Below are positions 8,677 through 61,352 of a stretch of DNA of 64,000 nucleotides, in pieces. The DNA is taken from positions 38,294 to 102,293 of IMG/VR virus record IMGVR_UViG_3300000553_000009; one strand, given 5' to 3'. The stretch is from a virus. The notes under the pieces were generated by a model. It did not search any database and was not told where the DNA came from. It saw only the letters and a list, made by a program, of their open reading frames with translations. The position numbers and the translations under genes were made by a program. How positions within the stretch are numbered: the stretch's first letter is position 1; the number at the start of each line of letters is the position of its first letter.

Positions 8677-9516
8677 ATGAGGACTCTACTTGTCAAGCCG
8701 GAACAACACGAATTAATTCACAAATTATATTTTGAAGATAATTTTTCACAAGGAGAAATAGGCAAAATTATAGGAGTTAGTCAAAAGTGTATTCATAAAT
8801 TGATGAAACGTCTAAATTGGCCCATTAGAACTAAACAAGAAGCCGCTAAGATTAAAAAATATAGTGTTGGATTAGATCATTGGAGAACTGAACATAAAGC
8901 TTGGAATAAAGGACTTACTCAAAATCATCCTATAATGAGATCCTTAATAGATAAAGGAAGAGAAACCCAAATAAAAAATGGAAAATCTAAGGGATCGAAC
9001 AATCCTATGTATGGTAAAGTATCAACTCATGCAAAAACTGGATATAGAAAAGATTTAAATCATTCTGTTAGATCCAGTTGGGAAGCAAATTTTGCTAGGA
9101 TCTTAAATTTCTTAGATTTAAGATATGAATATGAAAAACATACGTTCCCATTGAAAAATGGAGACACTTATACCCCCGATTTTTTCATACCTTCTAAAAA
9201 TAAGTTTTATGAACTGAAAGGATGGGAAATTACTGATAAACATTATAGATTTATTGAGGAATATCCACAGTATACATTAAAAATTATTAAAAGAGATAGA
9301 TATAATAAGTATATTAATAAATTTAGTAAGTTCATTGATTTGAATGACAATGCCTCTCTTTATACAGCAGAAGATATTATTTCGTTAGGGACCAAATGGA
9401 TGAACTCTAACCAAGGAACTATGAGAGAATTTTATAAAAAATATAAAATTTCCCATAGAACAATAACTAAATTTTTTGGGAATAAAACTACTCTAACTTC
9501 CATTATTTCCTGCTAA
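8677..9516 (+). CDS. Homing endonuclease, HTH + NUMOD3 + PD-(D/E)xK-like
   Basis: About 279 residues. Residues 5-50 form a helix-turn-helix (F-S-Q-G-E-I-G-K-I-I-G-V-S-Q-K-C), residues about 100-115 a NUMOD3 motif (G-S-N-N-P-M-Y-G-K), then a PD-(D/E)xK-type core: S-S-W-E-A-N-F, Y-T-P-D-F-F-I-P and Y-E-L-K-G. This fits stand-alone phage homing nucleases. It is the only plus-strand gene between rmlA and rmlD and has its own TAAATA core 8 nt before the ATG at 8677, so it moves and is transcribed independently of the operon. An earlier in-frame ATG at 8590 lies inside rmlA and is unlikely. Confidence 0.85.
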   Translation: MRTLLVKPEQHELIHKLYFEDNFSQGEIGKIIGVSQKCIHKLMKRLNWPIRTKQEAAKIKKYSVGLDHWRTEHKAWNKGLTQNHPIMRSLIDKGRETQIKNGKSKGSNNPMYGKVSTHAKTGYRKDLNHSVRSSWEANFARILNFLDLRYEYEKHTFPLKNGDTYTPDFFIPSKNKFYELKGWEITDKHYRFIEEYPQYTLKIIKRDRYNKYINKFSKFIDLNDNASLYTAEDIISLGTKWMNSNQGTMREFYKKYKISHRTITKFFGNKTTLTSIISC

Positions 9517-9535: not shown

Positions 9536-10420
9536 TTAGTTAAATTTAATTCGTAATAGAGAATTGTCAATTATTTCTGATTCTGAAAGCATTTGATAAA
9601 TTTTATTGGCCTTTTCTCCATTGAGCACACAGTTACTTCTTGGAGCAATAATATTCAGATCCTTTAGGTCCACAAATTTCCAATTTTTATTTGCCCAATC
9701 CGCCTCTATCATTCTTTTCGCTATCTGTAGGGTATCCAAAGGATTTGGGTTGACCACATTGTAGATATCCTGTCCCTGCCAGAATCCTTCAGTATCAATA
9801 TCCATAAGATTCTTAATGAACTTACATAAATCTGGAATATAAGTCTTAGAATTTACCATACTTATGATATTATCGTAATTTTTGATTTTAACCAAAAAAT
9901 TTCTAGGATTTTCATCAGGAGTGATCGGCATTCTAATACGAACGATTTTATTGTCTAGATTGTTTGACATTAGTTCAAAGGCATGTTTAGATTTACTATA
10001 AAAGCTACTATGATCAAATAGTCCAAAATTTGGTTTATCTGTTTCGGTAAATTCCTTATCATATCCATTGTAGATACAACCGGAAGAAATATGAATATAC
10101 TTCACGCCAAGTTTATTACATATTCTATTGAGTTTGAGGGGAGAAATAACATTTAATTCCCAACATTCCTCTTTTTTAATCTCTGCCTCATCGACATTAG
10201 GTCTTCCCGTAAACCCCGAGCAATTTATTACAATTTTAATATCATTATTAAGTAAAAACTTACTTAAAATGGATACATTATGATAATTTAGTTCCTTTGA
10301 TGATCTAATCATCCTATCATACTGAGATAACTTATCGTGTAAATAAGTCCCAATATATCCCTTCCCGATTATGAGAATGCGCTCATTCCAAGGTTTCTTC
10401 CACGAAAGTTTTGATGTCAT
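9536..10420 (-). CDS. dTDP-4-dehydrorhamnose reductase-like SDR (RmlD-like)
   Basis: About 294 residues, short-chain dehydrogenase/epimerase fold. Rossmann motif I-L-I-I-G-K-G-Y-I-G near residue 17, then N-C-S-G, I-S-S-G-C-I-Y-N-G (catalytic Ser/Thr strand) and the Y-S-K-S-K catalytic Tyr-Lys pair. Members reduce or epimerise sugar nucleotides; RmlD is the last step to dTDP-rhamnose and pairs with the RmlA-like gene. The start ATG at 10418-10420 lies inside a 36-nt copy of the 3' end of the gene at 11695, which shows that the two genes overlapped before the tnpB insertion. Confidence 0.8.
   Translation of the reverse strand: MTSKLSWKKPWNERILIIGKGYIGTYLHDKLSQYDRMIRSSKELNYHNVSILSKFLLNNDIKIVINCSGFTGRPNVDEAEIKKEECWELNVISPLKLNRICNKLGVKYIHISSGCIYNGYDKEFTETDKPNFGLFDHSSFYSKSKHAFELMSNNLDNKIVRIRMPITPDENPRNFLVKIKNYDNIISMVNSKTYIPDLCKFIKNLMDIDTEGFWQGQDIYNVVNPNPLDTLQIAKRMIEADWANKNWKFVDLKDLNIIAPRSNCVLNGEKANKIYQMLSESEIIDNSLLRIKFN
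10383..10418 (-). repeat. Displaced copy of target 3' end next to tnpB
   Basis: 36 nt on the minus strand encoding DIKTFVEETLE-stop, matching 11695-11730 with five mismatches, all synonymous. It overlaps the rmlD start in another frame. Confidence 0.85.
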
Positions 10421-10452
10421 GTGAATTAACTGTATCATGAATTTGATACTTG

Positions 10453-11652
10453 TCAAGAGTTGAAATTATTTTTCTCTTTTTTAGACACTTCACAGAGACC
10501 AGTTTCACTACTTTTAACAGTAGCCAGAGCTTTTCTCTCCATGCCAGTACAACTCAATTCCTGAGAGGAGACATTTATACCTTGTCTAAGGATATTTTTA
10601 GCAGCATTAATATCTCTATCGTGTTCTTGAGAACATTTAGGACATTTCCAGATACGAATATTAAGAGGTAATTTATCTATAATATAATCACAACCAGAGC
10701 AGGTCTTAGAAGAAGGATAAAATCTATCTATTTTTATCACTTCTTTATCATACCACTTGGCTTTATATTCTAACATTAATATAAATGAAGACCAACCCGA
10801 GTCAGAAATAGAATAAGATAGTTTTCTATTCTTAATCATTCCTTTCACGTTTAGATCTTCCAAAGAAATCAAATCATATTCCTTTATTAATTTAGAACTT
10901 AATTTATGTTGAAAATCCTTACGAGAATTGGTTATCTTCTCATGAATCTTTGCAACTTTTATTCTTTGTTTTATGTATCTATTACTTCCTTTTGTTTTAC
11001 GACTTAAATGTTTTTGAGCTTTTGATAGCTTATTTTTAGATTTTCTATTGAAATTAGGATTTTTAATTTTTGTACCATCTGAAAGGATTATGAAATCTTT
11101 GATTCCTAAATCAAGACCAACTTTTTTATCAGTTTTAGATTTATATTTTTTAGGGACTTCACAGAGAATAGAAACGAAATATTTATTAGTAGGAGTTTTT
11201 GAAAATGTGGCGGATTTAATTTTTCCCTCTAATGGTCTATGGAGATTAATTTTAATTCCTTCCGTAAATTTTGGAACTTTGATAATTTCTTTTTGTATCT
11301 TGACGTTTTGAGGAACCCCAAAACTTTGATGCCTACTTTTCTTTTTAAATTTTGGGAATTTCGTTTGTTTTTTAAAAAACTTTCCATATGCGGTTTCTAA
11401 ATTTTTTAAAACTTGACAAAGCGTTTGGGAATTAACATCATTTAACCAATTATAATTTTTCTCTTTTTTGAGAGGAGGCAATCCCAAACAACACTGATTG
11501 AAGTTTAAAGTAGTACCATTATTTAAATAATGATTCTGTTTTTCTACTAGAAAATAATTATAAATAAATCTAGCACATCCAAAATGTTTAGATAATAATT
11601 CCTTTTGAGAATCGGTGGGATCGATTCTATATTTAAATGATTGATATGTAAT
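10453..11652 (-). CDS. tnpB: TnpB RNA-guided nuclease (IS200/IS605-type), start codon lost
   Basis: TnpB family: RuvC-like motifs G-L-D-L-G-I-K-D-F, I-S-L-E-D-L-N-V and H-D-R-D-I-N-A-A-K-N-I-L supply the three acidic residues, and a C-x-x-C...C-x-x-C zinc finger lies before the last. A TTG at 11485-11487 would start inside the family domain. The frame continues 55 codons upstream with a clear TnpB N-terminus (S-F-K-Y-R-I, S-K-H-F-G-C-A-R-F-I-Y-N-Y-F) back to ATT at 11650-11652, just after a TAA, with no ATG/GTG/TTG there. The start codon is therefore non-canonical or mutated. No tnpA is nearby. Confidence 0.88.
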   Translation of the reverse strand: MTYQSFKYRIDPTDSQKELLSKHFGCARFIYNYFLVEKQNHYLNNGTTLNFNQCCLGLPPLKKEKNYNWLNDVNSQTLCQVLKNLETAYGKFFKKQTKFPKFKKKSRHQSFGVPQNVKIQKEIIKVPKFTEGIKINLHRPLEGKIKSATFSKTPTNKYFVSILCEVPKKYKSKTDKKVGLDLGIKDFIILSDGTKIKNPNFNRKSKNKLSKAQKHLSRKTKGSNRYIKQRIKVAKIHEKITNSRKDFQHKLSSKLIKEYDLISLEDLNVKGMIKNRKLSYSISDSGWSSFILMLEYKAKWYDKEVIKIDRFYPSSKTCSGCDYIIDKLPLNIRIWKCPKCSQEHDRDINAAKNILRQGINVSSQELSCTGMERKALATVKSSETGLCEVSKKEKNNFNS

Positions 11653-11694
11653 TTCTGATTCTATTTACTTATTTAGTTCATTTAAGTAAACTTT

Positions 11695-11730
11695 TTATTC
11701 CAGTGTTTCTTCCACAAAAGTTTTGATATC
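11695..11730 (-). repeat. Active copy of target 3' end
   Basis: Last 12 codons of the 70-residue gene, the partner of 10383-10418. The two copies bracket the tnpB insertion. Confidence 0.85.
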
Positions 11731-11907
11731 ATTCAATGTCACCTGATCATTATTATATAGGAAGTCAAGGACAATTTCTGCAAATTCTGATCCCATCGAA
11801 GACAATTCCTCATCTTCGGGGGTGTCCAAAAATTCTTGTAATTCATATATGGCATCCAGTAGTTTTTCTTCCTTGGCTTGAAACTTCTTCAATATTTTAG
11901 CACTCAT
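11695..11907 (-). CDS. Small acidic helical protein interrupted downstream by tnpB
   Basis: 70 residues, acidic and helical, no recognised family. Its TAAATA core on the minus strand (11914-11919) is 6 nt before the ATG. Its last 12 codons including the stop (DIKTFVEETLE) are repeated at 10383-10418 on the far side of tnpB with five nucleotide differences, all synonymous. The gene is thus the target of the tnpB insertion, kept intact because its 3' end exists in two versions. Confidence 0.75.
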   Translation of the reverse strand: MSAKILKKFQAKEEKLLDAIYELQEFLDTPEDEELSSMGSEFAEIVLDFLYNNDQVTLNDIKTFVEETLE

Positions 11908-11930: not shown

Positions 11931-11936
11931 TAAATA
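11931..11936 (+). promoter_or_regulatory. Late promoter core of SGNH hydrolase
   Basis: TAAATA, 5 nt before ATG 11942; divergent with the core at 11914. Confidence 0.65.
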
Positions 11937-11941
11937 TTAAT

Positions 11942-12577
11942 ATGTTAAAGTGGATTATTTTAATTTGGATGATGATTGGAAATTCAGTTCCTAAAAAACC
12001 TACCGTTTTGATGATAGGAGATAGTTTAACATGTATGGCTTATGGGGACCGAATGGAATCTAAGTTAAAACAAATATATGGAGAAGTTCATGTATTGGCC
12101 GCTTGTGGGTCCAGTCCGGAAACATGGATGTCAGGAATGCGGTCATATCATAGTCGATGTGGAACTAAAAATCTTGAACCCTGGGGAGGCACAACCCCCA
12201 AGATGGCAGATCTATTAGACATATGGCATCCCGATATTATAATTATCTCTTTAGGGACTAATCATTTTGATGCAGTTAAAGAATCTGGTTCTAAAATTAT
12301 TCCCCATCTTGGATACCTATATAGTAAATTTATTACGGAAGCTTCAAGTAAATCCGCCAAAATTATTTGGGTTGGTCCTCCCGATTCGTCTAAGTTTCGA
12401 GGCAAAGTGCAGGAATCTGTTTGTGAAGAAATACAAACAATTTGTAAGGCCAAAGGAGTACAATATATTCCAAGTTCTACTTTTACATCCTATTCAGGAT
12501 CAGATGGAGTACATTATACTACTAAAGGGGCGGTTGCATGGGCGGATAAAGTGATTGAAAGAATTAGTTATCATTAG
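11942..12577 (+). CDS. SGNH/GDSL hydrolase with N-terminal hydrophobic segment
   Basis: 211 residues with all four SGNH blocks: G-D-S-L near residue 27 (nucleophile Ser), a Gly in G-S-S-P, G-T-N-H (Asn), and D-G-V-H near the C-terminus (Asp/His). The first 14 residues (MLKWIILIWMMIGN) form a signal-peptide-like or membrane-anchor segment. The family removes acetyl or acyl groups from polysaccharides and lipids; beside tail-fibre genes it may de-acetylate host surface glycan, which is inference. It has TAAATA 5 nt before the ATG and ends in TAG. Confidence 0.85.
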   Translation: MLKWIILIWMMIGNSVPKKPTVLMIGDSLTCMAYGDRMESKLKQIYGEVHVLAACGSSPETWMSGMRSYHSRCGTKNLEPWGGTTPKMADLLDIWHPDIIIISLGTNHFDAVKESGSKIIPHLGYLYSKFITEASSKSAKIIWVGPPDSSKFRGKVQESVCEEIQTICKAKGVQYIPSSTFTSYSGSDGVHYTTKGAVAWADKVIERISYH

Positions 12578-12590: not shown

Positions 12591-12596
12591 TAAATA
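12591..12596 (+). promoter_or_regulatory. Late promoter core
   Basis: TAAATA, 5 nt before ATG 12602. Confidence 0.65.
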
Positions 12597-12601
12597 TAAC
12601 T

Positions 12602-12760
12602 ATGCTAACATGGATAATTTTAATTTGGGACAAGTTTAAAAATATTTTTAATCATAAATCGCCTGTAATCCCTATTCCTCCGGTAATACTGGATAATGAT
12701 TTAAGTTCTGAATCCGGTCAGAACTTGTACACGGAAAATAATCAATCTATAAGTAAATAA
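12602..12760 (+). CDS. Small peptide sharing the SGNH hydrolase N-terminus
   Basis: 52 residues. The first nine residues MLTWIILIW nearly match the start of the upstream hydrolase (MLKWIILIW), and both have TAAATA 5 nt before the ATG. The remainder is a short Pro-rich and polar tail with no domain. It may be a duplicated remnant of the hydrolase gene or a small membrane-anchored peptide. The next gene has its own TAAATA core overlapping the end of this gene. Confidence 0.55.
   Translation: MLTWIILIWDKFKNIFNHKSPVIPIPPVILDNDLSSESGQNLYTENNQSISK
12754..12759 (+). promoter_or_regulatory. Late promoter core of YadA-like fibre
   Basis: TAAATA, 5 nt before ATG 12765; it contains the upstream stop codon. 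Confidence 0.65.
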
Positions 12761-12764: not shown

Positions 12765-13754
12765 ATGAGTGTTAAAATTTCACAACTTCCTACTGCCTCT
12801 CTTCCCCTAATTGGAAATGAAACCTTCGCAGGCAATCAGAATGGAACAACTATTACTTCAGTTTTAAGTGACATTAAGACTTTTACAAATAGTGGAGTGG
12901 TTTTGACTACTAACTATCCTTCTCTTTCTACTAACTGGCAGAACACCTATACTACTTTCAGTGCGGCCTCTTCTAACTACGCATTAAAAAATGTTGACAA
13001 TCACTTTTCCACTGGACAAACCATCGTGGGGGGGTTGACTGCCAGTGGTTTCACTATTCCAAATCCTACATATCCAATAACCTTTAAACGGGGTATGAAT
13101 TCCGAAGTGTCCTTTGCAATAGGATTTACCCTTCTTCAAAATTTATCTGGAAATTTTGTTGTCGCTCTAGGTTATAGTGCCGGGGATCTTAATTCTGGGG
13201 ATTATGTAACTGCCATATCTAGGCTTGCCGCCTATAGTAATACTGGAAGTAATGTAAATGCTCTTGGATGGGCGTCCGCATATACTAATACTGGAAGTAA
13301 TATAAATGCATTGGGAACTAATGCATGTTATTTAAATACTGGCAATGATGTTAATGCATTAGGACATAGCTCGGCTGCGGGTAATGCTGGTAATAGTGTG
13401 GTTGCTATTGGAACCGGAGCTGCCACTAATAATGCGGGTAATAATGTGGTCGCTATTGGAAATGATGCGGGAGTCTCAAATTTTGGAGATGAGATGATTG
13501 CTATTGGGACCAATGCAGGAACTTCTAATGAGGGATCTAATAATATATTCATTGGACGAGACACTCTTCTTTTTACTACGCCCCTAAGTTCATGTATAAT
13601 AATAGGCAGAGAGGCATTAGCTACTGCCAACAATCAATTTGTATTGGGGTCCACCCACTATCCGGTATTAACCGCATCTTCAGGAATCAATACTAATAAA
13701 TTTTTAATGATTCAACTAAACGGTCAGACTTTGAAAATACCACTATATAGTTAA
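12765..13754 (+). CDS. Tail fibre/adhesin with YadA-like 16-residue repeats
   Basis: 329 residues. It begins M-S-V-K-I-S-Q-L-P-T-A, a common start in phage fibre proteins. Residues about 155-270 hold seven consecutive repeats of 16 residues with the core G-x-x-(V/I)-x-A-(L/I)-G, matching the left-handed beta-roll of YadA/Hep_Hag trimeric adhesin heads. A C-terminal F-V-L-G-S-T-H-Y-P region follows. The late core TAAATA is 5 nt before the start. It opens the 12-kb plus-strand tail cassette and is probably trimeric and surface exposed. Confidence 0.8.
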   Translation: MSVKISQLPTASLPLIGNETFAGNQNGTTITSVLSDIKTFTNSGVVLTTNYPSLSTNWQNTYTTFSAASSNYALKNVDNHFSTGQTIVGGLTASGFTIPNPTYPITFKRGMNSEVSFAIGFTLLQNLSGNFVVALGYSAGDLNSGDYVTAISRLAAYSNTGSNVNALGWASAYTNTGSNINALGTNACYLNTGNDVNALGHSSAAGNAGNSVVAIGTGAATNNAGNNVVAIGNDAGVSNFGDEMIAIGTNAGTSNEGSNNIFIGRDTLLFTTPLSSCIIIGREALATANNQFVLGSTHYPVLTASSGINTNKFLMIQLNGQTLKIPLYS

Positions 13755-32158: not shown

Positions 32159-33022
32159 TTATCTTTCTCCTATGAGTAGTTTTTGTTTTTCTATATATGC
32201 TAACCTAGATTTTCTCATATTTTCTCTAGCTTCCAATGACATTTTTCTACCTACATTCACTTGCCTTAATTTTTCCTTCGTTTCTTCTGTATGTACTCTA
32301 CCTAGTTGGGATCGACTCATTTTTTGTTTAGTTTCTTCTGAATGAGTTTTTCCCAAATTTGCCAATCTCATATTTTCGACATGTTTTTCGGATTTGTGTT
32401 TTCCCAAGCTCGATTGACTCATTTTCAATTTAGTTTCCTCTGACAGAATCATACCTAAATGTCCTTTGCCAATATTTTGCTTCCACTCCTCAGAAAATTC
32501 TGGTCTTGATTTTCCTAATTTAGACTGTCGCATTTTCACCAAAGCTTCTGGCGAATGTCCTTTATGTGGAACGCCGGTTTTAGTTTTCCGCATTTTTTCA
32601 ATAGCTTCTTTGGATTTAGGTTTTCCTAAACTAGCTAAACTAATTTTCCTTCTGGTTTCTTCCGAGACAGTCAATCCGGTCCTATCCGTGGAATACTTAC
32701 ATATATTATAACCTTTATTTACATTTGTAGAATCAAACAATTCTATATAATAAGATTCTCTTTCAAGAAGTTTTTTATTGTCTTTAGTTTTATCAAAAAC
32801 TTCAAATATTTCTAATATTTCTACCGTAAAGGATGACCATCCATGTTTTTTAATAGCGTTCTGTATATAATATCCCTTAATACCTTTTCGGTTTTCAGAA
32901 TTTTTATGTTGGTTCAATCGGAGATACAGGTTTACTGCCTTGCCTATATAAATTTTATTACTGCCTGTAGAAGTTAATTTATATACTCCTGCCTCTTTTG
33001 GATATTCATTTCTTGGTCCCAT
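32159..33022 (-). CDS. GIY-YIG homing endonuclease with NUMOD3 repeats
   Basis: 287 residues. GIY-YIG core at residues 12-100 (G-V-Y-K-L-T...K-I-Y-I-G-K-A-V-N-L, catalytic R-L and the terminal E of L-L-E-R-E). From residue 115 on come about nine NUMOD3-type DNA-binding repeats with S-E-E-T-K-x-K-M-S and L-G-K. It is inserted between gp59 and the gene at 33006 and has its own TAAATA core 5 nt before the ATG. Paralogue of the genes at 42778, 53518 and 60597. Its start overlaps the upstream stop. Confidence 0.9.
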   Translation of the reverse strand: MGPRNEYPKEAGVYKLTSTGSNKIYIGKAVNLYLRLNQHKNSENRKGIKGYYIQNAIKKHGWSSFTVEILEIFEVFDKTKDNKKLLERESYYIELFDSTNVNKGYNICKYSTDRTGLTVSEETRRKISLASLGKPKSKEAIEKMRKTKTGVPHKGHSPEALVKMRQSKLGKSRPEFSEEWKQNIGKGHLGMILSEETKLKMSQSSLGKHKSEKHVENMRLANLGKTHSEETKQKMSRSQLGRVHTEETKEKLRQVNVGRKMSLEARENMRKSRLAYIEKQKLLIGER

Positions 33023-39053: not shown

Positions 39054-39790
39054 GCAGATAATACTCGGTTCTTTCCGATTTCAAAATATACTGGATCTTT
39101 TTCAATACCAATAAATTTTCTATTAGTATTTTTTGCCGAAACGCCTACTGAAAATCCACCGGCGGCGAAATCTAACACTGTATCCTCTTCTTGAGTATAA
39201 GTTTTTATTAGATATTCCATCAAAGTTATAGGTTTCTGTGTAGGATGATATCGAGTATATCCCTTATTTGCCTCCCAACATCCAGTAATGATACTTGTAG
39301 GATTTTTATCAGTATAAGTAAAGATCTTTGATTCATTATCTACATAATCTCCAATACCTTTTGAATTTTTTGTGACATTCCAAGTCGTCATAGGTTTATC
39401 TCTTGGAACTTTTATAGGATAATAATTATGTTTGTAATTTTTAGAGAAAACTATGACATTTTCATGCTTACGCATAGGCTGTTGTTTAGCCTGATGCATT
39501 CCTCTTGGGATATGTTTATCCCAAAACCACTCATATCTAAACCATTCTCTATTAGAGCTTACCAAGTCAGAAGTGAACGGTTGTTGTCCTGTCATGACAA
39601 TCACTCCATTTTCTTTAATTATTCTTTTTAATTGAGTCCATAGGGGATCAAAAGGAATAATCACATCCCATGAGTACTACCTGTAGTTAGATGAATATGG
39701 GGGATCGGACAACACAAGGTCTATGGAATTGTCTGGAAGATTTTTCATTTCTTCCAGACAATCGCCTAAAATGAATTGAAAATTATTCAT
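39050..39790 (-). CDS. DNA methyltransferase (N4/N6 amino type) with in-frame amber codon
   Basis: Read across one TAG codon (39677-39679, codon 38) the frame gives a full-length amino-methyltransferase: N-terminal D-L-V-L-S-D-P-P-Y catalytic motif IV, then W-D-V-I-I-P-F-D-P-L-W, and C-terminal H-P-T-Q-K-P plus V-L-D-F-A-A-G-G-F-S-V-G, the SAM-binding motif I of the beta-type order. Without the first part (GTG start at 39662-39664) the catalytic DPPY is missing. The ATG at 39788-39790 overlaps the uvsX stop as ATGA. It is a recent nonsense mutation, a suppressed stop, or a sequencing error. Confidence 0.75.
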
Positions 39791-41331
39791 TCTTCGTCTG
39801 ATGGAATTTCTTCCTCTTCTAATTCGTCTAACTTTTTAGATACTTTTCGTCTAATTGCCTTGAGTTTTTCCAATGGATCATCAGATACTTCATTATCTTC
39901 TTCATCATTATCCTCATCATCCATTACGTCTTCTTCATCATATGGAGCTTCTTCATTAGAATATTTCCAAGCAGTTTGAATACGATTTTCTAATTCGGGT
40001 AAAAGAGTTTTTTCCCAAAGTTCCTTCTTCTTTCTCCAAGCTTTATAGAACCCTAATTGATTACCATTCCAATCTTTATATGTTTTACCACCAAGAACTA
40101 CAACACCAAGACCTTTCATAAGATCTAAAAGTCCATAATACCGATCCAATCCAGTTGCAAATGAAAGATATAGTTCCACTTCAAGATATTGTTTGATAAA
40201 TCTGTTTTTAACAGATAGACAACGAAGAATAACTCCAGAGAAGTTTCTCTGCCCTGCTGCTAATGTATTATCTACAGTTTTTCCTTCATCATCTTTCATT
40301 GGTTTTCGAGCCAATTGAATGGTGACGGAAGGTTTGTAGGCAGCACCCTTACCGCCAGGCATATTCTTATCCAGTGAAGGATACATCGCAGAAGGATCAT
40401 CATATACTTCATTAGTTACTATGATAGTTGTTTTCGTAAGCTTACCCCAATTCACACAAGTTTTTAAGAAGTTCTTAATTGACTTGGCAAATGTTCCCAT
40501 ATCAGCGGAAGTTGCTCCTTTATCCATTCTAGCTTCTCCCAATTCGGTTTCCATATTAGCCAACGAATCAACTATAATGACAAACTTTCCAATTGCTCCT
40601 GCTTCTGCAACTTTTTTCAGGAAGTTGCGAACGGCATTTCGAGTATTCTCAATGGTTGTAGTTGGAACATACTTAACTTTTGTTGGATCAATCCCAAATG
40701 CTTTACATCCATCTCCCTCAATAGCATTTTCACTATCAAAAACTACTACATGTTTTCCCATCTTCTGAGAATTTGCAATAAGTTTTTGAACAAAAAAAGT
40801 TTTTCCACAGTTATGACTACATAACCCACCACTCCAATACCGTTGATTCATATGATTAACTGATATATCATACACAAGTTGTGGTTCAATTTTTTCTATA
40901 TTCGTTATTTCCAAATCACCAGACTGTGTTAATAGCATCTCCCCAATCTCTAAGTTTTTAGTAAACTCCCAAGTTTTATCATCTCTCTGAAATTGGTGTA
41001 TCTCAGAACATTCCACACTATAATCTCCTACCGTGACCCTATAACACTCCGAGATAGGTCGCTCAAATATTTTATTAATATCCGTCCATCCATCAGGAGA
41101 GTCCACTAAATATCTACAATTATATTTCATCATTTCAGGAATAGTTATTTCCTCTGAGTAATTCGATACATGTATGTCAAATAATTGAATTATTTTGTCC
41201 TCAGTATGTTTCGACACCATTCCCCCGTGAAAAAGTTTCGACACTAACTCCCGGTCTACTTCTGCGAGTTCTCCAATCTCTGTAAACGTGTAAAACTCTT
41301 TAAGTTCCTCTAATATTTCTTGTACTGTCAT
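39787..41331 (-). CDS. uvsX: UvsX C-terminal half fused to C-intein (split uvsX, part 2)
   Basis: 514 residues. Residues 175-514 are the RecA/UvsX core: C-G-K-T-F-F finishes Walker A, F-D-S-E-N-A, I-I-V-D-S-L-A-N-M (Walker B), Thr-rich loop and acidic C-terminal tail. Residues 68-174 are a C-intein: S-E-I-H block B, then V-Y-D-I-S-V and the terminal R-Y-W-S-G-G-L-C-S-H-N before Cys+1. Residues 1-67 are an extra HTH-like domain (E-I-G-E-L-A-E-V-D-R-E-L-V-S-K-L). Product must be trans-spliced to the part at 42467. ATG 41331 overlaps the nuclease by 32 nt; ATG 41130 would give only the intein and extein. Confidence 0.92.
   Translation of the reverse strand: MTVQEILEELKEFYTFTEIGELAEVDRELVSKLFHGGMVSKHTEDKIIQLFDIHVSNYSEEITIPEMMKYNCRYLVDSPDGWTDINKIFERPISECYRVTVGDYSVECSEIHQFQRDDKTWEFTKNLEIGEMLLTQSGDLEITNIEKIEPQLVYDISVNHMNQRYWSGGLCSHNCGKTFFVQKLIANSQKMGKHVVVFDSENAIEGDGCKAFGIDPTKVKYVPTTTIENTRNAVRNFLKKVAEAGAIGKFVIIVDSLANMETELGEARMDKGATSADMGTFAKSIKNFLKTCVNWGKLTKTTIIVTNEVYDDPSAMYPSLDKNMPGGKGAAYKPSVTIQLARKPMKDDEGKTVDNTLAAGQRNFSGVILRCLSVKNRFIKQYLEVELYLSFATGLDRYYGLLDLMKGLGVVVLGGKTYKDWNGNQLGFYKAWRKKKELWEKTLLPELENRIQTAWKYSNEEAPYDEEDVMDDEDNDEEDNEVSDDPLEKLKAIRRKVSKKLDELEEEEIPSDEE
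40810..41331 (-). other. C-intein coding segment with HTH-like extension
   Basis: Residues 1-174 of the reading frame end in His-Asn (40810-40815) directly before Cys (40807-40809), the canonical C-terminal splice junction. Residues 68-174, about 107 aa, are close in length to C-inteins of atypically split inteins such as AceL-TerL. Residues 1-67 look like an unrelated small helix-turn-helix and are absent from ordinary inteins. Confidence 0.85.
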
Positions 41332-42436
41332 GATTATTAATTTTATTTTTTATTATCGTTCTAAACTGTAAAATCTTATCCTGTCGATTATCTATCTTTT
41401 CCCAAAAATATAAAATCTCGAAATTATTGTGGTTAGCCAATTCCTCTTTGTTAAGATCTTTTTTTAAACTATCAGTTACTGTTATAAACGGAGTGTCCTT
41501 AACTCGGGGGTGAAACATTATTCCGTTGTATTCAATAATTAAATTAAGTTGCGGTATTGTAAAATCGTAAAAATATATTGATTTATTTTTATGGTCATAA
41601 ATAAAATATTCATCGTCATCCACATATATCTGGAAGTCTTGGGGAACTCCCAATCCGGCTATTATTTCCTTAAAAAATAAGGAAGAAGCTTTCGAATACC
41701 GTTTAAAACATGATGTCCTTTTCCATAAAATCTCGTCCTTCTCTGATTGGGGCCGAGCATTAAACGTGGTTGAGCATTTATTCGCTATAATAGATTGAAT
41801 ATTTAAAGCCTCAGATTCCGATACATTATGTCGAGTCATTATAGATTCCAATGACCGAGTATTTTGTAATATAGATATTCTTATTTTAGCGTCATCTGCT
41901 GAGAACCCTCTAAATGTCCAAAACTCAATATTTTTACAGGACCATCTTTTTTTATAGCCACCCAATTTAATTATTGTATCCTTATTGGATTGAACTTTTC
42001 GCCTAACCCTATCTTCATATTTAAGTTTAGCTTCTTCCTGTGAAATACCATAATACTCTGCTAACTTAGCAGGATCTTTAAAATTATGAGCTTTCTTAAC
42101 ATTTATTTTTTCTAATTCCTCCAGAGATTTTTGAGCATTTGTAGTCTTCATTCTCTCCATCGCTCTTTCTTTAACCGCTAAATCTAAATACCGACCGCCC
42201 TGTAAGCGTAATATTTCCGATTTAGCAGAATCTAAATCCCAAAATCTCTCTAAAAAATGTGAGATATTTCGTACAGTATGCGTCGGAAATAAATCACTTA
42301 TTATAGGACGCTTGTGTTTCCATATCAGTAGGTACTCTCTATATTTTCTCCATGTATCACTTTTAGTTCCCCTATAATTTTTTACCTTTTTCATAAGGGA
42401 CATGAAATGTTGTTTATTAGATAATTTTTTAGCCAT
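41300..42436 (-). CDS. Homing endonuclease between split-intein halves of uvsX
   Basis: 378 residues. N-terminal 250 residues are basic and helical, probably DNA-binding; residues 285-365 carry the nuclease core I-Y-F-Y-D-F-T-I-P, L-I-I-E-Y-N-G and an H-P after it, fitting Vsr/EDxHD-type or related PD-(D/E)xK homing nucleases known between split-intein genes (the published 'fractured genes' arrangement). Its start lies in a hairpin (42432-42454) that also holds a TAAATA core 5 nt before the ATG, so it is transcribed separately from uvsX. Expected target: intein-less uvsX at the Walker A codons. Confidence 0.85.
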   Translation of the reverse strand: MAKKLSNKQHFMSLMKKVKNYRGTKSDTWRKYREYLLIWKHKRPIISDLFPTHTVRNISHFLERFWDLDSAKSEILRLQGGRYLDLAVKERAMERMKTTNAQKSLEELEKINVKKAHNFKDPAKLAEYYGISQEEAKLKYEDRVRRKVQSNKDTIIKLGGYKKRWSCKNIEFWTFRGFSADDAKIRISILQNTRSLESIMTRHNVSESEALNIQSIIANKCSTTFNARPQSEKDEILWKRTSCFKRYSKASSLFFKEIIAGLGVPQDFQIYVDDDEYFIYDHKNKSIYFYDFTIPQLNLIIEYNGIMFHPRVKDTPFITVTDSLKKDLNKEELANHNNFEILYFWEKIDNRQDKILQFRTIIKNKINNHDSTRNIRGT

Positions 42437-42777: not shown

Positions 42778-43653
42778 TTAATTCCCTTCAATTTCCTTAG
42801 ACTGTTTACGTTTAATATTATTCTGTTTCATTTTCTCTTTAGATTCTAAGGAATGTTTCCTTCCAAGTCCCGCCTGTCTTAACTTTTCCTTATGTTCTTC
42901 GGAAAGTTTTCTCCCCGTTTTTGCAAAACTCATATTTTGTTTTGCTTTCTCCGATTTAGGTTTTCTCATTTTTTCTTTGGCTTCTTCGGAATGTGTTCTC
43001 CCAAGATTAACTTGTCTAAATTTTTCCTTGGTTTCCTCTGATTTAGGTTTTCTCATTTTTTGCTTCGCCTCTTCAGAATGTTTTTTCCCTAATCTGCTTA
43101 GACTCATTTTTTCTTTGGTTTCTTGAGAATGCTTTCTCCCCAATCCAGTAGATTTTCCTAATCTAACCCGACTCATTTTTTCTTTAGTTTCCTTAGAAGC
43201 AGTTTTTCCTAGTTTGGCTTGTCTATATTTTTGTTTTATTTCCTCTGATGGTATCTTCCCTCTATTAGAATCTCCTATTTTTCTTTTTGTTTCTTCGGAG
43301 ACGGGCATTCCAGTTCTATCAGTGGAAAACTTACATATATTATATCCTATATCTATATTAGTGGAATCAAACAATTCAATATAATGGGATTCTCTTTCTA
43401 ATAAGAAAGTATTATCTTTTAATTTATCAAAATTATCAATTATTTCCAAAATTTCGACGGAAAACGATTTCCATCTATGTTTAATCAAGGCATATTGAAG
43501 ATATGATAATCTTTTATTACCCTGTTTAACATTTCTATAATGATAGAGTCTTTTTCTAATATTAATTGATTTTCCAATATATATTTTTCCATTATTAATA
43601 CAAGTTAGTTTGTAGACCCCGGCGACATTTGGATATTCTGGATGAGTTCCCAT
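42778..43653 (-). CDS. GIY-YIG homing endonuclease with NUMOD3 repeats
   Basis: 291 residues. GIY-YIG core at 13-100 (G-V-Y-K-L-T-C, K-I-Y-I-G-K-S-I-N-I-R-K-R, terminal L-L-E-R-E), then about nine NUMOD3-type repeats of S-E-E-T/A-K-x-K-M and L-G-K. Directly upstream of the uvsX N-part (gap of 2 nt), probably using uvsX or its flank as target. TAAATA lies 5 nt before the ATG and overlaps the stop of the gene at 43662. Paralogue of the genes at 32159, 53518 and 60597. Confidence 0.9.
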   Translation of the reverse strand: MGTHPEYPNVAGVYKLTCINNGKIYIGKSINIRKRLYHYRNVKQGNKRLSYLQYALIKHRWKSFSVEILEIIDNFDKLKDNTFLLERESHYIELFDSTNIDIGYNICKFSTDRTGMPVSEETKRKIGDSNRGKIPSEEIKQKYRQAKLGKTASKETKEKMSRVRLGKSTGLGRKHSQETKEKMSLSRLGKKHSEEAKQKMRKPKSEETKEKFRQVNLGRTHSEEAKEKMRKPKSEKAKQNMSFAKTGRKLSEEHKEKLRQAGLGRKHSLESKEKMKQNNIKRKQSKEIEGN

Positions 43654-48294: not shown

Positions 48295-49395
48295 TTACTC
48301 ATCCATAATATAAAAGTCAAGTAGATATCCAGAATTAATAACCGATTGTTTTTTGAGAAGATTTTTTTCTAATTCTTTTTCGTAAGTCCACTTAGATTTC
48401 ACTTCAATAATTCTATTATCTTTAGGAATAAAAATATCAGGATAATATACTTTAGTCTTACCGTTTAAAATATATCTAAAGGTCGGTACTTCATCTCTTC
48501 CTATTTTAATATCTTCTATAAGATATCCTTCGGATAATAATTTATATATTCCTCGCAATTCATATCCCTGATATATAATTTCTATACCATCAATAATAGA
48601 AGTTTTGAACCGTAATCCTGAGTCCTGATTTTTAGTAAAATATTTTTTAACTTGCATAGGATTACGAACACCATATTTTTCTTCAAATTTATCACTTTGC
48701 CAATCTCTATAATTTTCCCAACTTCCATAATTTTTAAATATGGAAGTTGCAGACATTTCTTTATTTTTACTAGTATTAGCCGCCTCTTTTTGACCTCTAA
48801 TATGTATTTTCTGTTCATCTAATATTCTAAAAATAACACAAGAATCATATTTTAATAATTTAGAAATATATTTTGCCCCATACCCTTCGGCGTATAAAGA
48901 GCAAATACGGTCAACTTCATCCTCAGAAACATTGCGCTGGACTTGCGTTTTTTGTTTTTCATATCGTCTTTCTATATTTCTAGCCTCTTTAGGAGTTCTA
49001 ATATGAATACCGTTTCTCTTAAGCCAGGTACTAATAGTCATACTCTGAACACCAAATAAATCACATATTTCTGATGTTCCGTATCCCTCATCTACGTATA
49101 ATTTTCTAATTTCCTCATCTTTTCCCAATAATTTGGGATGGGTGAACTTAAAATCTCCAAATTTAGAATTATTCTCAACCCTAAATTTTCCCATAGTGGA
49201 TCTAGCTTGATCCAAGGTTCTAGTATTTAACCTATTGGCTCTAAACCATTTAGTTATAGTATCACAGGAGCACTTATATCTGTCCGCAATATATAAAATG
49301 GGAGCACCCTGAACATAATATAGATCAATAATTTCCTTTTCTTTACCGATTAAATTTTTATGATTAAATAGTTTAACAATAGTAATAGCATCCAT
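48295..49395 (-). CDS. HTH + PD-(D/E)xK-like homing endonuclease
   Basis: 366 residues. Three helix-turn-helix units in residues 15-200 (each with Y-G/V-x-x-I, W-L-K-R-N and a terminal I-R-T/G), a linker, then a nuclease core at about 310-345: Y-Y-P-D-I-F-I-P and R-I-I-E-V-K-S-K-W. This is the layout of stand-alone phage homing nucleases. Its TAAATA core is 5 nt before the ATG. Sits between gp46 and the glycosyltransferase without disrupting either. Confidence 0.83.
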   Translation of the reverse strand: MDAITIVKLFNHKNLIGKEKEIIDLYYVQGAPILYIADRYKCSCDTITKWFRANRLNTRTLDQARSTMGKFRVENNSKFGDFKFTHPKLLGKDEEIRKLYVDEGYGTSEICDLFGVQSMTISTWLKRNGIHIRTPKEARNIERRYEKQKTQVQRNVSEDEVDRICSLYAEGYGAKYISKLLKYDSCVIFRILDEQKIHIRGQKEAANTSKNKEMSATSIFKNYGSWENYRDWQSDKFEEKYGVRNPMQVKKYFTKNQDSGLRFKTSIIDGIEIIYQGYELRGIYKLLSEGYLIEDIKIGRDEVPTFRYILNGKTKVYYPDIFIPKDNRIIEVKSKWTYEKELEKNLLKKQSVINSGYLLDFYIMDE

Positions 49396-53353: not shown

Positions 53354-53521
53354 TTATTCTGGTTCTACTATTACTGCTTTTTTAAGTTCTGGGGTTCTAT
53401 CATCTATCCAAGTACTATGAGGCTCTATTAACATTGCTTTGGAATTGGGTCCATTGTAATCTAGTACTGCTTTCCATTTATCTACTATTCTTTTTAATTC
53501 TTCTGGTGACGTTTCGCTCAT
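53354..53521 (-). CDS. Small protein upstream of gp55
   Basis: 55 residues: ATG 53519-53521, TAA 53354-53356. Charged and polar (M-S-E-T-S-P-E-E-L-K-R-I-V-D-K-W), no recognised family. Its ATG overlaps the stop of the GIY-YIG gene as ATGA and it ends 4 nt before gp55. Before the nuclease inserted it probably followed uvsW directly. Confidence 0.6.
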   Translation of the reverse strand: MSETSPEELKRIVDKWKAVLDYNGPNSKAMLIEPHSTWIDDRTPELKKAVIVEPE

Positions 53522-54273
53522 AAATCAATTTTAATAACGGGGATTACTATATTAGTTTTTCTTTTAGATTCTCTTAATTTATCTTTATGTTCTTGAGAGA
53601 AAGGCTTGCCCAATTTGGCCAGTCTCATCTTTAATTTAGTTTCATCTGAGCGTTTCTTTCCTAGATTAGATTGTCTATTTTTTTCTTTAGATTCTTCAGT
53701 ATGCTTCTTACCCATACGACTTTTTCTTATATTTTCTCTAGCTTCCTTGGATCTAGGTTGTCTCATCTTTTCCTTCGATTCTTCAGAATGAGTTTTTCCT
53801 AAATTATAATTTCTCATCTTTTCTCTATTCTCTTCAGTTGACATTTTATTTTTAATAGCTTCTTTATGATGATCAGATAAAGGCTTTCCGAGTTTAGCCT
53901 TGCTCATTTTTTCTTTTGTATCATCTGAATGGACCAATCCGGTCCTATCTTGGGAATAGGTGCAGATATTGTATCCTATATCTTTATTAGTGGATTCAAA
54001 TACTCCTATATAATATGCCTCCTTCTCTAATAAAAATTTATTATCTTTAGTTTTATCAAAATTTTCAAAAGTTTCTATAATTTCAACTACAAAAGAATTC
54101 CATCCATACTTTATAATCACATTTTCAAAATAACATCTACCTTTAGATCTACGTTCACAGTATCTATGTGAATTTAATCGTTTATTTAAATTAATAGCTT
54201 TACCTATATATACTTTACCATTATATATACAAGTTAATTTATAAATTCCCGCGACATTTGGATAGCTAGTCAT
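53518..54273 (-). CDS. GIY-YIG homing endonuclease with NUMOD3 repeats
   Basis: About 251 residues from ATG 54273, which overlaps the uvsW stop (TGA at 54270-54272). GIY-YIG core (G-I-Y-K-L-T-C, K-V-Y-I-G-K-A-I-N-L, L-L-E-K-E) followed by about seven NUMOD3-type repeats. Upstream in-frame ATG 54318 lies inside uvsW. It has no TAAATA core of its own and depends on uvsW read-through, unlike its paralogues at 32159 and 42778. Confidence 0.88.
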   Translation of the reverse strand: MTSYPNVAGIYKLTCIYNGKVYIGKAINLNKRLNSHRYCERRSKGRCYFENVIIKYGWNSFVVEIIETFENFDKTKDNKFLLEKEAYYIGVFESTNKDIGYNICTYSQDRTGLVHSDDTKEKMSKAKLGKPLSDHHKEAIKNKMSTEENREKMRNYNLGKTHSEESKEKMRQPRSKEARENIRKSRMGKKHTEESKEKNRQSNLGKKRSDETKLKMRLAKLGKPFSQEHKDKLRESKRKTNIVIPVIKIDL

Positions 54274-55697
54274 TTTAGTATTAATTTGCCGAGCAAATTT
54301 ATTTCCGATTCTTTCCACGGAATTTGTTCTTCTGTGTAAAATTGTTTTCTCTCTTCCACATGTCTCTTGGAATATTTTAGATTATCATAGATATCGAATA
54401 ACACAAGTTGATCCTTTGAATCATGTAATCTTAATCCTCTTCCAATTGACTGTATAGTTCTGATGAAACTTTTACCTCCAGACACAAACATAATATAATG
54501 AAGATTCTTAATATTTATACCAGTTGAAAATATTTTAGACATGGCAATACAGACAATATTATCCTGTATTTCCATCTTATTTGTTATGGACTGTCTTTCT
54601 TCCACAGGCATTTCACCATTGATAAAATAAACCTCTTTGCCTTCTAATTCAAGAGCGGCCAATAAATTATTACCATGCTCAAGTCTGTTGACAAGAATTA
54701 GAACATTTTTATCCAATCTCTTCACCAGAACCTTTATCATATTATTTCTCAAAGAAGACTCATGAATAAATTGAAGTTCTTCCTCATATCCCTTAATTTT
54801 AAGGGAATGATTTAATTTAATAATCTTAATTATCGCATTAGATAAGTATCCCTCATCTCTGAGTTCTTTGGATTTCTTTTCGTAAATCACTCTTCCAAAT
54901 GTTCCAATGACTTTCCATTTATCCATTAATGCTTTTGGAAGAGTTCCAGTGAATCCAAACTTATAAGGAGTTTTTATCTTATGTAATACTTTTGCTAATT
55001 TACTGGAAGTGTTTACTTTGTGACACTCATCAGTTATAACCAAATCAACTTCTGTCAACCACTTGAAATTTGAAAATTGAGAACATAAATTTTCAGAATT
55101 GGCAATTATTACCTGAGTGTCCTGAGGTTTCGTCCCACCCGTCCAGCCTGAATATGTAAATGTTACTCCATAATCTTCAAAGTCTCCCATAAGTTGATCT
55201 ACCAGAGATAACCCAGGAACGACCAGGAGGCACTTGAAATCATCCGAAACCTTTTCCTTGTAAGTCTGCAAGAGGGATGCTTGCAACAAGCTCTTACCTG
55301 ATCCTGTGGCACTTACGATGGTTCCGTGATGACTAGAGAAAGCACATTCCAATGTTTCTCTTTGATATTCTCTTAAATCATATCTAAGAGTATCCGACAT
55401 GGATAAAACTATTCCGAATTGAACATATACTCGTTTTCTAAAAGCTTCAGTATATTCAACTTCTCCCAATTGTTTTTCTCGAATAAATTTTTGAATATCA
55501 TCTTCCAATCCAAAATCGAAAGATCCATTAGATCCGATGGCATAATCTCTATCAGGAATATGCTTATTGACTTTTTTAATATAATAACTTCCCGCCTTTT
55601 TAACGGAAAAATGGTTACGAATCAAACCGAAAATTGAGGAGTCTTCACAACTCAATTTTCCCTTTCTCGATTTTTCATCATAATCCAAAGTTATCAT
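54270..55697 (-). CDS. uvsW: DNA/RNA helicase UvsW-like (SF2)
   Basis: 475 residues (T4 UvsW: about 500). SF2 motifs: I S-A-T-G-S-G-K-S, Ia L-V-V-P-G-L-S-L-V-D-Q, II I-T-D-E-C-H, III G-F-T-G-T-L, V S-T-G-I-N-I, VI Q-S-I-G-R-G-L-R-L. T4 UvsW unwinds R-loops and D-loops and shifts replication from origin- to recombination-dependent mode. It overlaps the upstream gene as ATGA. Confidence 0.9.
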   Translation of the reverse strand: MITLDYDEKSRKGKLSCEDSSIFGLIRNHFSVKKAGSYYIKKVNKHIPDRDYAIGSNGSFDFGLEDDIQKFIREKQLGEVEYTEAFRKRVYVQFGIVLSMSDTLRYDLREYQRETLECAFSSHHGTIVSATGSGKSLLQASLLQTYKEKVSDDFKCLLVVPGLSLVDQLMGDFEDYGVTFTYSGWTGGTKPQDTQVIIANSENLCSQFSNFKWLTEVDLVITDECHKVNTSSKLAKVLHKIKTPYKFGFTGTLPKALMDKWKVIGTFGRVIYEKKSKELRDEGYLSNAIIKIIKLNHSLKIKGYEEELQFIHESSLRNNMIKVLVKRLDKNVLILVNRLEHGNNLLAALELEGKEVYFINGEMPVEERQSITNKMEIQDNIVCIAMSKIFSTGINIKNLHYIMFVSGGKSFIRTIQSIGRGLRLHDSKDQLVLFDIYDNLKYSKRHVEERKQFYTEEQIPWKESEINLLGKLILK

Positions 55698-56497: not shown

Positions 56498-57340
56498 ATG
56501 TATACTGAATATTACGTTTATATATTAAAAGATCAAGATGGAATTATAAGATATGTGGGAAAAACCGGAGACTATAAAAACAGAATAGCTTCACATTTTA
56601 AAAAATCTAGTAATCCATTAGTTAGAGAACATATAAATAAAAACTGGACTCATGACCATATTATATGTTCCAGTGATGAAATCGAAATATTAAAGATAGA
56701 AAAAAACATAATCGAAAAATATAAACCACAACTTTACAATATAAAAAATTTTGGAGGTATATCTGGGAAATATAATAAAAATCCATCAGTAAAGATAAAA
56801 AATATCAATACTAATAATGTACTTCAATTTAAAACACAAAAAGAAGCCGCCCTTTTTCTAAATGTTCATAAATCCACTGTATCTTATTTAATAAAAGGTA
56901 AAAAATCTCATATTTCTGGACAATGGGTTTTAGAAAACACAGATCCGTCCATTATAAATATAAATCCCAGAAAAACAGGGTTTTTAGTAGATAAACAAGA
57001 AAGATATTTTAAATTATATGATACCGTCGAAAATACCTATATTGAATTTAAATCTGTTACTGATTGTGCGAATAAATTAAAAACAAACACTACTTCTATT
57101 TCTAGATTAAAAAAAGGAAGTCTACAATCCATAAAAAATGGTAGATATAAATTATCAGTTAATAATATCAGTCAATATAAACCCATAAAAATATATGATA
57201 AATTAACCAACACAGTATTACAATTTAATAAAAAATCAGAATTTTGTAAAGAATTTAATATTCATTCATCATATGCTTCCCAATTATCTTCTGGAAAAAT
57301 AAAACACATTCATAATAGATTTGAATTATATATTTCTTAA
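56498..57340 (+). CDS. GIY-YIG homing endonuclease with NUMOD1 repeats
   Basis: 280 residues. GIY-YIG core at 5-90 (Y-V-Y-I-L-K, I-R-Y-V-G-K-T-G-D-Y-K-N-R, E-K-N-I-I-E-K-Y), then three NUMOD1-type helix-turn-helix repeats with F-K-T-Q-K-E-A-A-L-F-L-N-V-H-K-S-T-V as clearest copy. Different lineage from the NUMOD3 paralogues. TAAATA is 5 nt before the ATG. Transcribed divergently from uvsY. Confidence 0.87.
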   Translation: MYTEYYVYILKDQDGIIRYVGKTGDYKNRIASHFKKSSNPLVREHINKNWTHDHIICSSDEIEILKIEKNIIEKYKPQLYNIKNFGGISGKYNKNPSVKIKNINTNNVLQFKTQKEAALFLNVHKSTVSYLIKGKKSHISGQWVLENTDPSIININPRKTGFLVDKQERYFKLYDTVENTYIEFKSVTDCANKLKTNTTSISRLKKGSLQSIKNGRYKLSVNNISQYKPIKIYDKLTNTVLQFNKKSEFCKEFNIHSSYASQLSSGKIKHIHNRFELYIS

Positions 57341-60150: not shown

Positions 60151-60600
60151 ATGAAATCTTTCAAACTATATTTTGTAGAAAAAACTATTCTTGGTTTGGA
60201 AGAAACCATTTATATTGATGAAATTGGACAACTTAAAGCAAAGCTCGATACTGGTAATGGCGCATTTAATGTTCTCCACGGGGAGGATATCCAACAAGAT
60301 GGAAAACTTGTTCGCTTTACCACCGACAAGGCAATCGTTTTGGAAAAGCCCATATCCAGTAGAATCACAATTAACCTTGGAGCAGGCAATACGGAAGAAC
60401 GTCCGGTTGTCCTTCTGAATGTAAAAATTGGAAATAAGATTTTTAAAGACATTCCGTTTTCCATAGGAGACAGAAAAGATAATGTTCATAAGGTTCTAAT
60501 TGGTAAGAATTTTATACAGACAAATCTCAACGCACTTGTGGATGTATCCTTGATAGATGTAGCCAGTAAAAATTTAGAGGCAGATTATAAAAATGTATGA
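60151..60600 (+). CDS. RimK-type ATP-dependent zinc protease-like protein
   Basis: 149 residues. K-A-K-L-D-T-G-N-G-A-F near residue 30 is the D-T-G motif of the retropepsin-like family annotated as RimK-associated zinc proteases; V-L-I-G-K-N-F-I near 125 is the second conserved loop. The first nine residues (MKSFKLYFVE) look like a capsid-targeting-like segment ending in V-E. Its last 17 codons have a diverged copy at the 3' end of the GIY-YIG gene that follows, showing that the latter inserted into this gene's end. Confidence 0.75.
   Translation: MKSFKLYFVEKTILGLEETIYIDEIGQLKAKLDTGNGAFNVLHGEDIQQDGKLVRFTTDKAIVLEKPISSRITINLGAGNTEERPVVLLNVKIGNKIFKDIPFSIGDRKDNVHKVLIGKNFIQTNLNALVDVSLIDVASKNLEADYKNV
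60529..60579 (+). repeat. 3'-end repeat, copy in protease gene
   Basis: Seventeen codons encoding N-A-L-V-D-V-S-L-I-D-V-A-S-K-N-L-E, homologous to 61290-61340. Confidence 0.8.
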
Positions 60601-61352
60601 AATCATATCCAACAGGAGCGGGAATATATAAATTGACTTGTGTCAAGAATGGAAAGGTATATATAGGAAAGTCCGTTAATATTTATTTTAGACTTAGTTA
60701 TCATAAAAGCTGTGAAAAAAAATCTAAGGGGAGAGGATATTTTGAAAATTCTATAATAAAATATGGATGGGATTATTTTAATATCGAGATATTAGAAACT
60801 GTCGATAATTTTGATAAATTAAAAGACAACGTCGCTCTTCTTGAAAGAGAAGCATATTATATAAAATTATTTGATTCTACCAATACTTCTAAGGGATATA
60901 ATATATGTTCGTATTCTACCGATAGAACTGGAATACCAAATTCTGAAGAGACGAGAAAAAATATAAGTCAAGGTCAATTAGGACGAAAGCTTTCAGAAGA
61001 AACAAAAGAAAAGATTAGACAATCTAGACTTGGAAAAGCCGGTACCCCCCATTCTGAAGCGACTAAAGAACACCTAAGACAAATTAATACTGGAAAAAAA
61101 CTTTCAGAAGAACAGAAAAGTAAACTGAGACAATTTCGACTCGGGACAAAACACTCCGAAGAAACCAAATTAAAGTTAAGTTTGGCCAGAATTGGCAACT
61201 CTAATGCCCGTGGGTTTAAACATTCAGAAGAGACTAAAGAAAAATGTAGGTTAGGTAAACTAAAAAGTAAGCAATCCACAACAGAACTTGATGCTCTAAT
61301 TGATGTTAGTTTATTAAATGTAGCAGATAAGAATTTGGAGGTATCGGTATGA
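60597..61352 (+). CDS. GIY-YIG homing endonuclease with target-derived C-terminal tail
   Basis: 251 residues. GIY-YIG core (G-I-Y-K-L-T-C, K-V-Y-I-G-K-S-V-N-I, L-L-E-R-E) and about six NUMOD3-type repeats. The C-terminal 20 residues leave the nuclease family and read A-L-I-D-V-S-L-L-N-V-A-D-K-N-L-E, matching the C-terminus of the preceding protease (A-L-V-D-V-S-L-I-D-V-A-S-K-N-L-E). The start overlaps the protease stop and the stop overlaps the next ATG. The nuclease is therefore fused in frame to the displaced 3' end of its target. Confidence 0.9.
   Translation: MKSYPTGAGIYKLTCVKNGKVYIGKSVNIYFRLSYHKSCEKKSKGRGYFENSIIKYGWDYFNIEILETVDNFDKLKDNVALLEREAYYIKLFDSTNTSKGYNICSYSTDRTGIPNSEETRKNISQGQLGRKLSEETKEKIRQSRLGKAGTPHSEATKEHLRQINTGKKLSEEQKSKLRQFRLGTKHSEETKLKLSLARIGNSNARGFKHSEETKEKCRLGKLKSKQSTTELDALIDVSLLNVADKNLEVSV
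61290..61340 (+). repeat. 3'-end repeat, copy fused to nuclease gene
   Basis: Seventeen codons encoding D-A-L-I-D-V-S-L-L-N-V-A-D-K-N-L-E, in frame with the GIY-YIG gene; diverged at many third positions from 60529-60579. Confidence 0.8.

Follow-up and report, generated by a model that had tools for sequence, protein, structure and literature searches.

The host70–tnpB–rmlD locus

Virus record IMGVR_UViG_3300000553_000009 of IMG/VR is 126 kb long. The 64 kb of it analysed here—record positions 38,294 to 102,293, 'the window', in whose own numbering all positions are given—hold a gene for TnpB, the RNA-guided nuclease of IS200/IS605 insertion sequences (ISs), with the same gene end on either side of it. 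That gene end, and how the TnpB element may have come to carry it, are the subject of this article. The window is T4-like: it encodes a family B DNA polymerase (PHROG 262) and, by eye from the list of open reading frames (ORFs), further T4-like replication proteins, namely clamp loader, gp46/47-like and UvsX-like proteins. Three genes follow one another on its minus strand (Table 1): a 70-residue gene, here called host70; the TnpB frame; and rmlD. Host70 has no match in Pfam or PHROG and no credible relative among GenBank phages; such relatives as it has, at 51–68% identity, stand immediately upstream of rmlD. This tnpB is the only one in the 126-kb record, and an Rfam search of the window gave no match.

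The final 38 nt of host70 occur twice: once at the end of the gene itself (the 'recoded' or 'replacement' copy), and once past tnpB (the 'displaced' copy). In the host70 frame both encode DIKTFVEETLE and a stop, and over these 36 nt the copies differ five times—C/T, C/T, C/A, T/C and G/A—and all five differences are synonymous in that frame, TGA versus TAA included. For changes placed at random, simulation puts the probability of this at 0.00013–0.00095, the range being set by the transition bias. In the rmlD frame the same five changes are non-synonymous (MTSKLSWKKPWN / MISKLLWKKHWN). The downstream flank matches its best upstream counterpart at 32/36 positions, and shuffled controls at 20/36 or fewer. 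The original prediction, made from the letters of the window, had noted both the duplication and its silent differences, and copy comparison and simulation confirm it; it had also placed the start of rmlD in the displaced copy, and the ATG at 10420 does open the rmlD frame, at the homologous position to that in tnpB-less relatives. Because the downstream copy begins at this ATG, what is duplicated coincides exactly with the overlap of host70 and rmlD in those relatives. No other sequence coding for DIKTFVEETLE was found in viral contigs, and the exact 16-mer TCTTGACAAGTATCAA has matches only in contigs without host70.

Table 1. Positions of the features discussed, in window numbering
Feature	Position	Strand	Remarks
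host70, 70-residue gene, kept whole	11698..11907; stop TAA 11695-11697	-	ORF
ATTGA, would-be target-adjacent motif (TAM) position of recoded copy	11733..11737	-	non-consensus
Recoded (replacement) copy of host70 3' end, ATGATATCAAAACTTTTGTGGAAGAAACACTGGAATAA	11695..11732	-	33/38 identical to displaced copy
TTTAC, possible second TAM at left border of element	11686..11690	-	right after host70 stop; ambiguous
tnpB; OrfB_IS605, Cas12f1-like TNB and HTH domains	10453..11664	-	RuvC and zinc-ribbon motifs intact; no ATG start
Putative omega RNA 3' scaffold / right end: weak hairpin GTATCA..TGATAC, then AGTTAATTCAC	10421..10501	-	degenerate compared with relatives
Displaced host70 end = predicted guide region = 5' end of rmlD coding sequence	10383..10420	-	first guide base 10420
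rmlD, dTDP-4-dehydrorhamnose reductase-like	9536..10420	-	Pfam RmlD_sub_bind 4.8e-18; opens at displaced-copy ATG; start position conserved in relatives
Endonuclease-like ORFs	8680-9516, 32159-33022, 41300-42436, 42778-43653, 48295-49395, 53518-54318, 56498-57340, 60597-61352

Alleles without tnpB

Searches with the rmlD and host70 proteins turned up about 25 viral contigs without tnpB in which a single host70 end overlaps rmlD, as it does in most, or runs directly into it. A shared host70/rmlD start, ATGAyATy, occurs in L001, L007, L075, L076, L077, L090, L091 and others, and the nearest relative, L025 (68%), has the single, overlapping arrangement too; some more distant relatives (L003–L005, L010 and L023) have other genes between the two. 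None of the roughly 25 contigs has both copies. Overlap of the target gene with rmlD where tnpB is missing, and the restriction of the second copy to the occupied site, had been expected from the original prediction, and among the relatives found both hold. In two related phages (L086/L187 and L087/L193, each pair being one contig) a TnpB 71% identical to that of the window is encoded elsewhere in the genome, and the host70/rmlD site is empty.

The TnpB element

The identity of the protein is clear (Pfam PF01385, 2.9e-30, and PF07282, 6.8e-25; TnpB structure 8bf8 in the PDB, E 1.4e-82), and the catalytic residues D182, E266 and D348 and the CxxC motifs are present. How its translation begins is less so: the first ATG, GTG or TTG of the frame is an internal TTG at 11487. 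The same is seen in its clade (11487–11664 in the window; L026, L186 and L190), which has none of these codons near the expected start, and in the window, L026 and L190 the frame opens ATAGAA..GAAATTACATAY. This suggests that translation in the clade starts at ATT or ATA, or that it depends on translational coupling.

In most of the relatives surveyed, viral and cellular, the right end of the element has the consensus GAAGCC–hairpin–GTAGTTCAC, lies 101–174 nt past the last zinc-ribbon motif, and is followed at once by the guide. In the window, TTAATTCAC lies some 165 nt past that motif, with its last base at 10421; the displaced copy therefore starts at the first guide base. The displaced copy may be longer, at 24 codons (LDKYQIHDTVNSHDIK...), since the additional stretch resembles empty alleles in register (P ~2e-4 to 4e-4), but that stretch also forms a right-end-like hairpin and TTCAC.

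The TAM of the family is TTTAN, deduced as TTTAT from near-identical elements with different flanks and as TTTAC in L026b. A TTTAC in L026a was rejected as a left border, its surroundings aligning by eye with sequence interior to L026b, and no credible relative was found for the gene that L026 interrupts. Where the window has ATTGA before the site, several empty host70 alleles have TTTAA, TTTGA or TCTAA.

Further loci of the same layout

Copies of the guide flank were sought upstream of tnpB at 100 distinct TnpB sites. The window ranked first, and L198 and L190 were also found. L199 emerged when translations were compared, and L162 from a broader pass of 163 items, in which control pairs scored 65 or less. 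These four further cases, three from phages and one (L162) from a bacterial metagenome-assembled genome, have protein scores of 89–157 against the control maximum of 65. In each, the stranded gene end starts at the first guide base past the TnpB right end, and the diverged copy lies on the TAM side, in an intact gene. At the TAM position their left flanks read TTTAT, TTTAC, TTTGT and CTTAC, and the right ends of L198, L199 and L190 are canonical.

The genes concerned are different ones, and 5' as well as 3' ends are involved. In L198, TTTAT followed by AGGTCAGTGGG completes the 5' end of a gene on the opposite strand (MKQYTPDKWLVIKIEGGDFPLT-YKVF...), and the displaced end, AGGTCAAAGGA, stands after the right end and encodes MNNEYTPDKWLVVKIEGEEFPLT, with 17 of 20 aligned amino acids identical. 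L190 likewise has a 5' end of about 28 aa in two versions, MIYDPSSNIIENEQNHLFLCYCTFVNNIK restored and MSNPSSAIIESESDHLFICYCSFVNHLK displaced. In L199 the gene is that of an RNA ligase (Pfam RNA_lig_T4_1), the first 47 residues of which are duplicated at 60% aa identity. In L162, TTTAC is followed by AATGACGATGGG..., which supplies a long protein with its last codons and matches the displaced copy at 48 of 54 nt. Within the first 16 guide positions the replacement copy mismatches the guide once in the window (a second mismatch falls at position 17), four times in L198, five times in L190, four times in L199 and twice in L162. The intact gene is on the TAM side in 5/5 cases (P 0.03 at equal odds for both orientations), and no other geometry allows the gene to be rescued while the guide is directed at the empty allele.

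Some candidates were set aside. L252 was not counted: there a canonical IS605, with both tnpA and tnpB, has inserted between two tandem whole-gene paralogs, each of which is preceded by TTTAT/TTAAAA. L277 and L278 were rejected as repeats in tRNA clusters, and L261 because its N-terminal motif is common to a gene family. Sixteen TnpB regions of GenBank phages yielded no additional case.

Origin of the replacement end in L199

The ligase gene of L199 could be compared with 54 relatives. It is 88% identical to that of L299 in the first 72 codons and 62% in the remainder, a difference of 0.25; among 116 control pairs of like divergence the maximum was 0.09 and the median 0.03. A change point fits best at codon 74 (delta lnL 30), some 27 codons beyond the junction at codon 47. 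The displaced end is 61–65% identical to relatives at the nucleotide level, which is about as diverged as the gene body. Since the high identity to L299 is confined to the first 74 or so codons, the replacement end and the stretch that adjoins it came from another lineage, whereas gene body and displaced end look native. A tract of this kind, reaching past the junction, resembles what homing with co-conversion would leave, and what is found in mORF hybrid genes, to which we return below.

How the element might spread, and alternatives

The layout can be accounted for as follows. A TnpB element of the IS200/IS605 type would straddle a gene end of the phage next to a TTTAN, the original site being TAM followed by ATGACATC..., so that the native gene end is displaced to the far side of the element, beside the right end, where it would supply the guide of the omega RNA. 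A diverged copy of the same end, between the TAM side and tnpB, would make the gene whole again. The guide would then match the native, empty allele—predicted for the window to be ATGACATCAAAACTTTCG following TTTAN—but not the replacement copy. The occupied allele is expected to stay uncut, because there the native end lacks an adjoining TAM and the replacement end is mismatched to the guide; for the window, with only one mismatch in the first 16 guide positions, resistance would also depend on the non-consensus ATTGA. In a mixed infection TnpB could cut the empty allele, TAM and native end together, and the break would be repaired with the occupied genome as template, the element and the replacement end being copied as one, so that the recipient gene survives. 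We think it probable, if by no means certain, that these are elements that carry a replacement gene end and spread by homing with rescue. The original prediction had read the window in this way, as TnpB homing into the gene end. It is supported in part, by the empty allele, the four similar layouts, the foreign end of L199 and the guide mismatches; that TnpB cuts and homes, that the recoded copy resists it and that the copy in the window arose in the same way are what we infer from these sequences.

Several observations pull the other way. A covariance model of the right end, R1, was built from 13 relatives with the window left out; its best hit in the window does end exactly at 10421, but scores only 17.6 bits (E 0.11), most of which stems from the coding part, compared with about 84 in L187 and L193, which were outside the training set too. 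With so weak an omega-RNA scaffold the guide RNA of the window may be dead, and the copy may no longer be active. The 37 nt that precede the displaced copy, moreover, resemble empty host70 alleles in register (P ~2e-4 to 4e-4), and this, together with the poor scaffold, makes both the right border and present activity uncertain in the window. The nearest relatives, at 68% identity or less, are too distant for the empty allele to be equated with the displaced copy, or for native and foreign ends to be told apart there. The TTTAC past the host70 stop would permit insertion after a duplication that already existed. One TnpB, from an archaeon, is sensitive to single mismatches where the TAM is weak, which speaks for resistance, but tolerates them where it is strong, and one mismatch in 16 might fail to protect the recoded copy at a strong TAM (PMC11043419).

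Of the alternatives, the main one is passive recombination between phages: the element disrupted the gene end, which was later restored by crossing over with a co-infecting relative, for instance between IS copies at two neighbouring sites, the nuclease being irrelevant to the spread. Recombination is frequent among phages, and it too would account for the foreign replacement end of L199, where, in addition, a canonical left end with a TTTAT of its own persists past the replacement copy, as if the flank had come from another insertion. Recombination alone does not favour one geometry, however, and all five cases have the sole one that fits drive and rescue (P 0.03, as above); nor does it lead one to expect the same outcome repeatedly in unrelated genes, with every recoded copy mismatched to the guide. 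We consider it unlikely, but it deserves to be taken seriously.

A lower probability attaches to a tandem duplication of the host70/rmlD overlap that separated the two genes beforehand, the IS entering later at TTTAC (11690–11686). That sequence is a good TAM directly past the host70 stop, and L252 provides an example with whole-gene paralogs; TTTAN is common in AT-rich DNA, however, no tnpB-less relative found has both copies, and a prior duplication does not predict that the second copy should stop precisely at the right end, as it does in the four further cases. We regard this course of events as improbable.

It is more improbable still that the end was duplicated during insertion and that the copies then drifted in place, the upstream one constrained by host70 and the downstream one by rmlD. 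Both copies encode the same 11 residues, seen in no other relative found, so the two are close kin. Even so, the downstream copy, freed from the host70 constraint, should hold differences that are non-synonymous for host70, and has none, and the copies of L199 and L190, which differ by about 40% in protein, are too far apart for this. IS200/IS605 insertion is not known to make a target duplication, which also counts against it. That the layout is a chimera, assembled from empty and occupied strain variants, is the least probable explanation of all: the five cases are known only from assemblies, but the junctions have no sequence in common that could join variants, and the same precise border recurs in five unrelated assemblies, among them that of a bacterial genome bin.

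Other features of the window

Besides tnpB, the 64 kb hold at least eight more endonuclease-like ORFs (Table 1), some GIY-YIG/Seg-like with repeated tails, others HNH- or resolvase-like; no duplicated gene ends were found beside these eight. One of them, at 41300–42436, overlaps the start of a UvsX-like ORF (39787–41331) that, by eye, has an insert before CGKTFFVQ resembling a small intein and ending in SHN, then C. Two successive plus-strand ORFs have a common leader (11931–11983 and 12591–12643; 75% over 53 nt) and a common hydrophobic start (MLKWIILIW / MLTWIILIW), and five direct repeats with a 48-nt spacing occur at 13228–13460, within the ORF of a putative tail or structural protein.

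Relation to known systems

The closest architectural parallel is with the mORF hybrid genes of fungal mitochondria, known from atp6 of Allomyces and from atp6, atp9, cox2 and nad3 of Glomus (PMC3630166). There, too, a nuclease ORF lies at a gene end, a diverged, inserted end is fused to the gene core, the native end stands beyond the nuclease, the differences are largely synonymous and the inserted end is foreign (PMC3630166), as it is in L199. The window has this arrangement, a duplicated end around a nuclease ORF with the core fused to the near copy. The mORF enzymes, however, are mitochondrial homing endonucleases guided by protein, LAGLIDADG being the kind given for atp6 (PMC3630166), whereas TnpB is guided by RNA, and the cases described here come from phages and one bacterium and involve 5' and 3' gene ends alike.

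In protein family, right-end hairpin and motif (weak in the window), left-flank TAM (ambiguous there) and right-flank guide, the elements resemble those of IS200/IS605 TnpB with its omega RNA; ordinary copies, however, interrupt or separate genes, and an interrupted gene is not left whole with a rewritten end (PMC8612924). On plasmids TnpB can act as a gene drive by cutting copies that lack the IS, which favours IS-bearing replicons; the setting is one of copy number, and the abstract of that report describes no repair of an interrupted gene (PMC11870625). Homing endonucleases of T4-like phages spread in mixed infections by double-strand break repair with co-conversion of flanks, as proposed here, but the free-standing ones sit between genes and cut at a distance, and the introns splice out (PMC2988022). 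The nearest engineered counterpart is the HomeR drive, in which an RNA-guided nuclease is placed at the gene that it targets, together with a rescue sequence that the guide is not supposed to recognise; those drives are synthetic, use Cas9 and operate in insects (PMC7968924).

The TnpB plasmid drive, homing with co-conversion in T4-like phages and the mORF architecture are thus already known. What appears to be new is the RNA-guided version, in phages and one bacterium and at 5' and 3' gene ends; our literature search, outside whose coverage most subscription journals lie, found no report of a TnpB element with a replacement gene end. The wider proposition, that some TnpB elements are natural home-and-rescue drives, with a guide from the native end and a foreign or recoded end that rescues the gene and evades the guide, so that empty alleles are converted by homing and the target gene is kept, in phages and at least one bacterium, is in our judgement evenly balanced.

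TnpB is regarded as an ancestor of Cas12, and its usual role as that of holding the IS in place. The loci described here suggest that a TnpB element can also occupy a gene without destroying it, by virtue of a guide-escaping gene end that accompanies the element. L198 and L199, whose guide-RNA ends are canonical, are ready test cases. If the suggestion is true, recoded rescue drives would have a precedent in nature and the mitochondrial mORFs an RNA-guided parallel, and it would be easier to understand how nucleases of this kind hold out in phage genomes that are compact and whose genes overlap.
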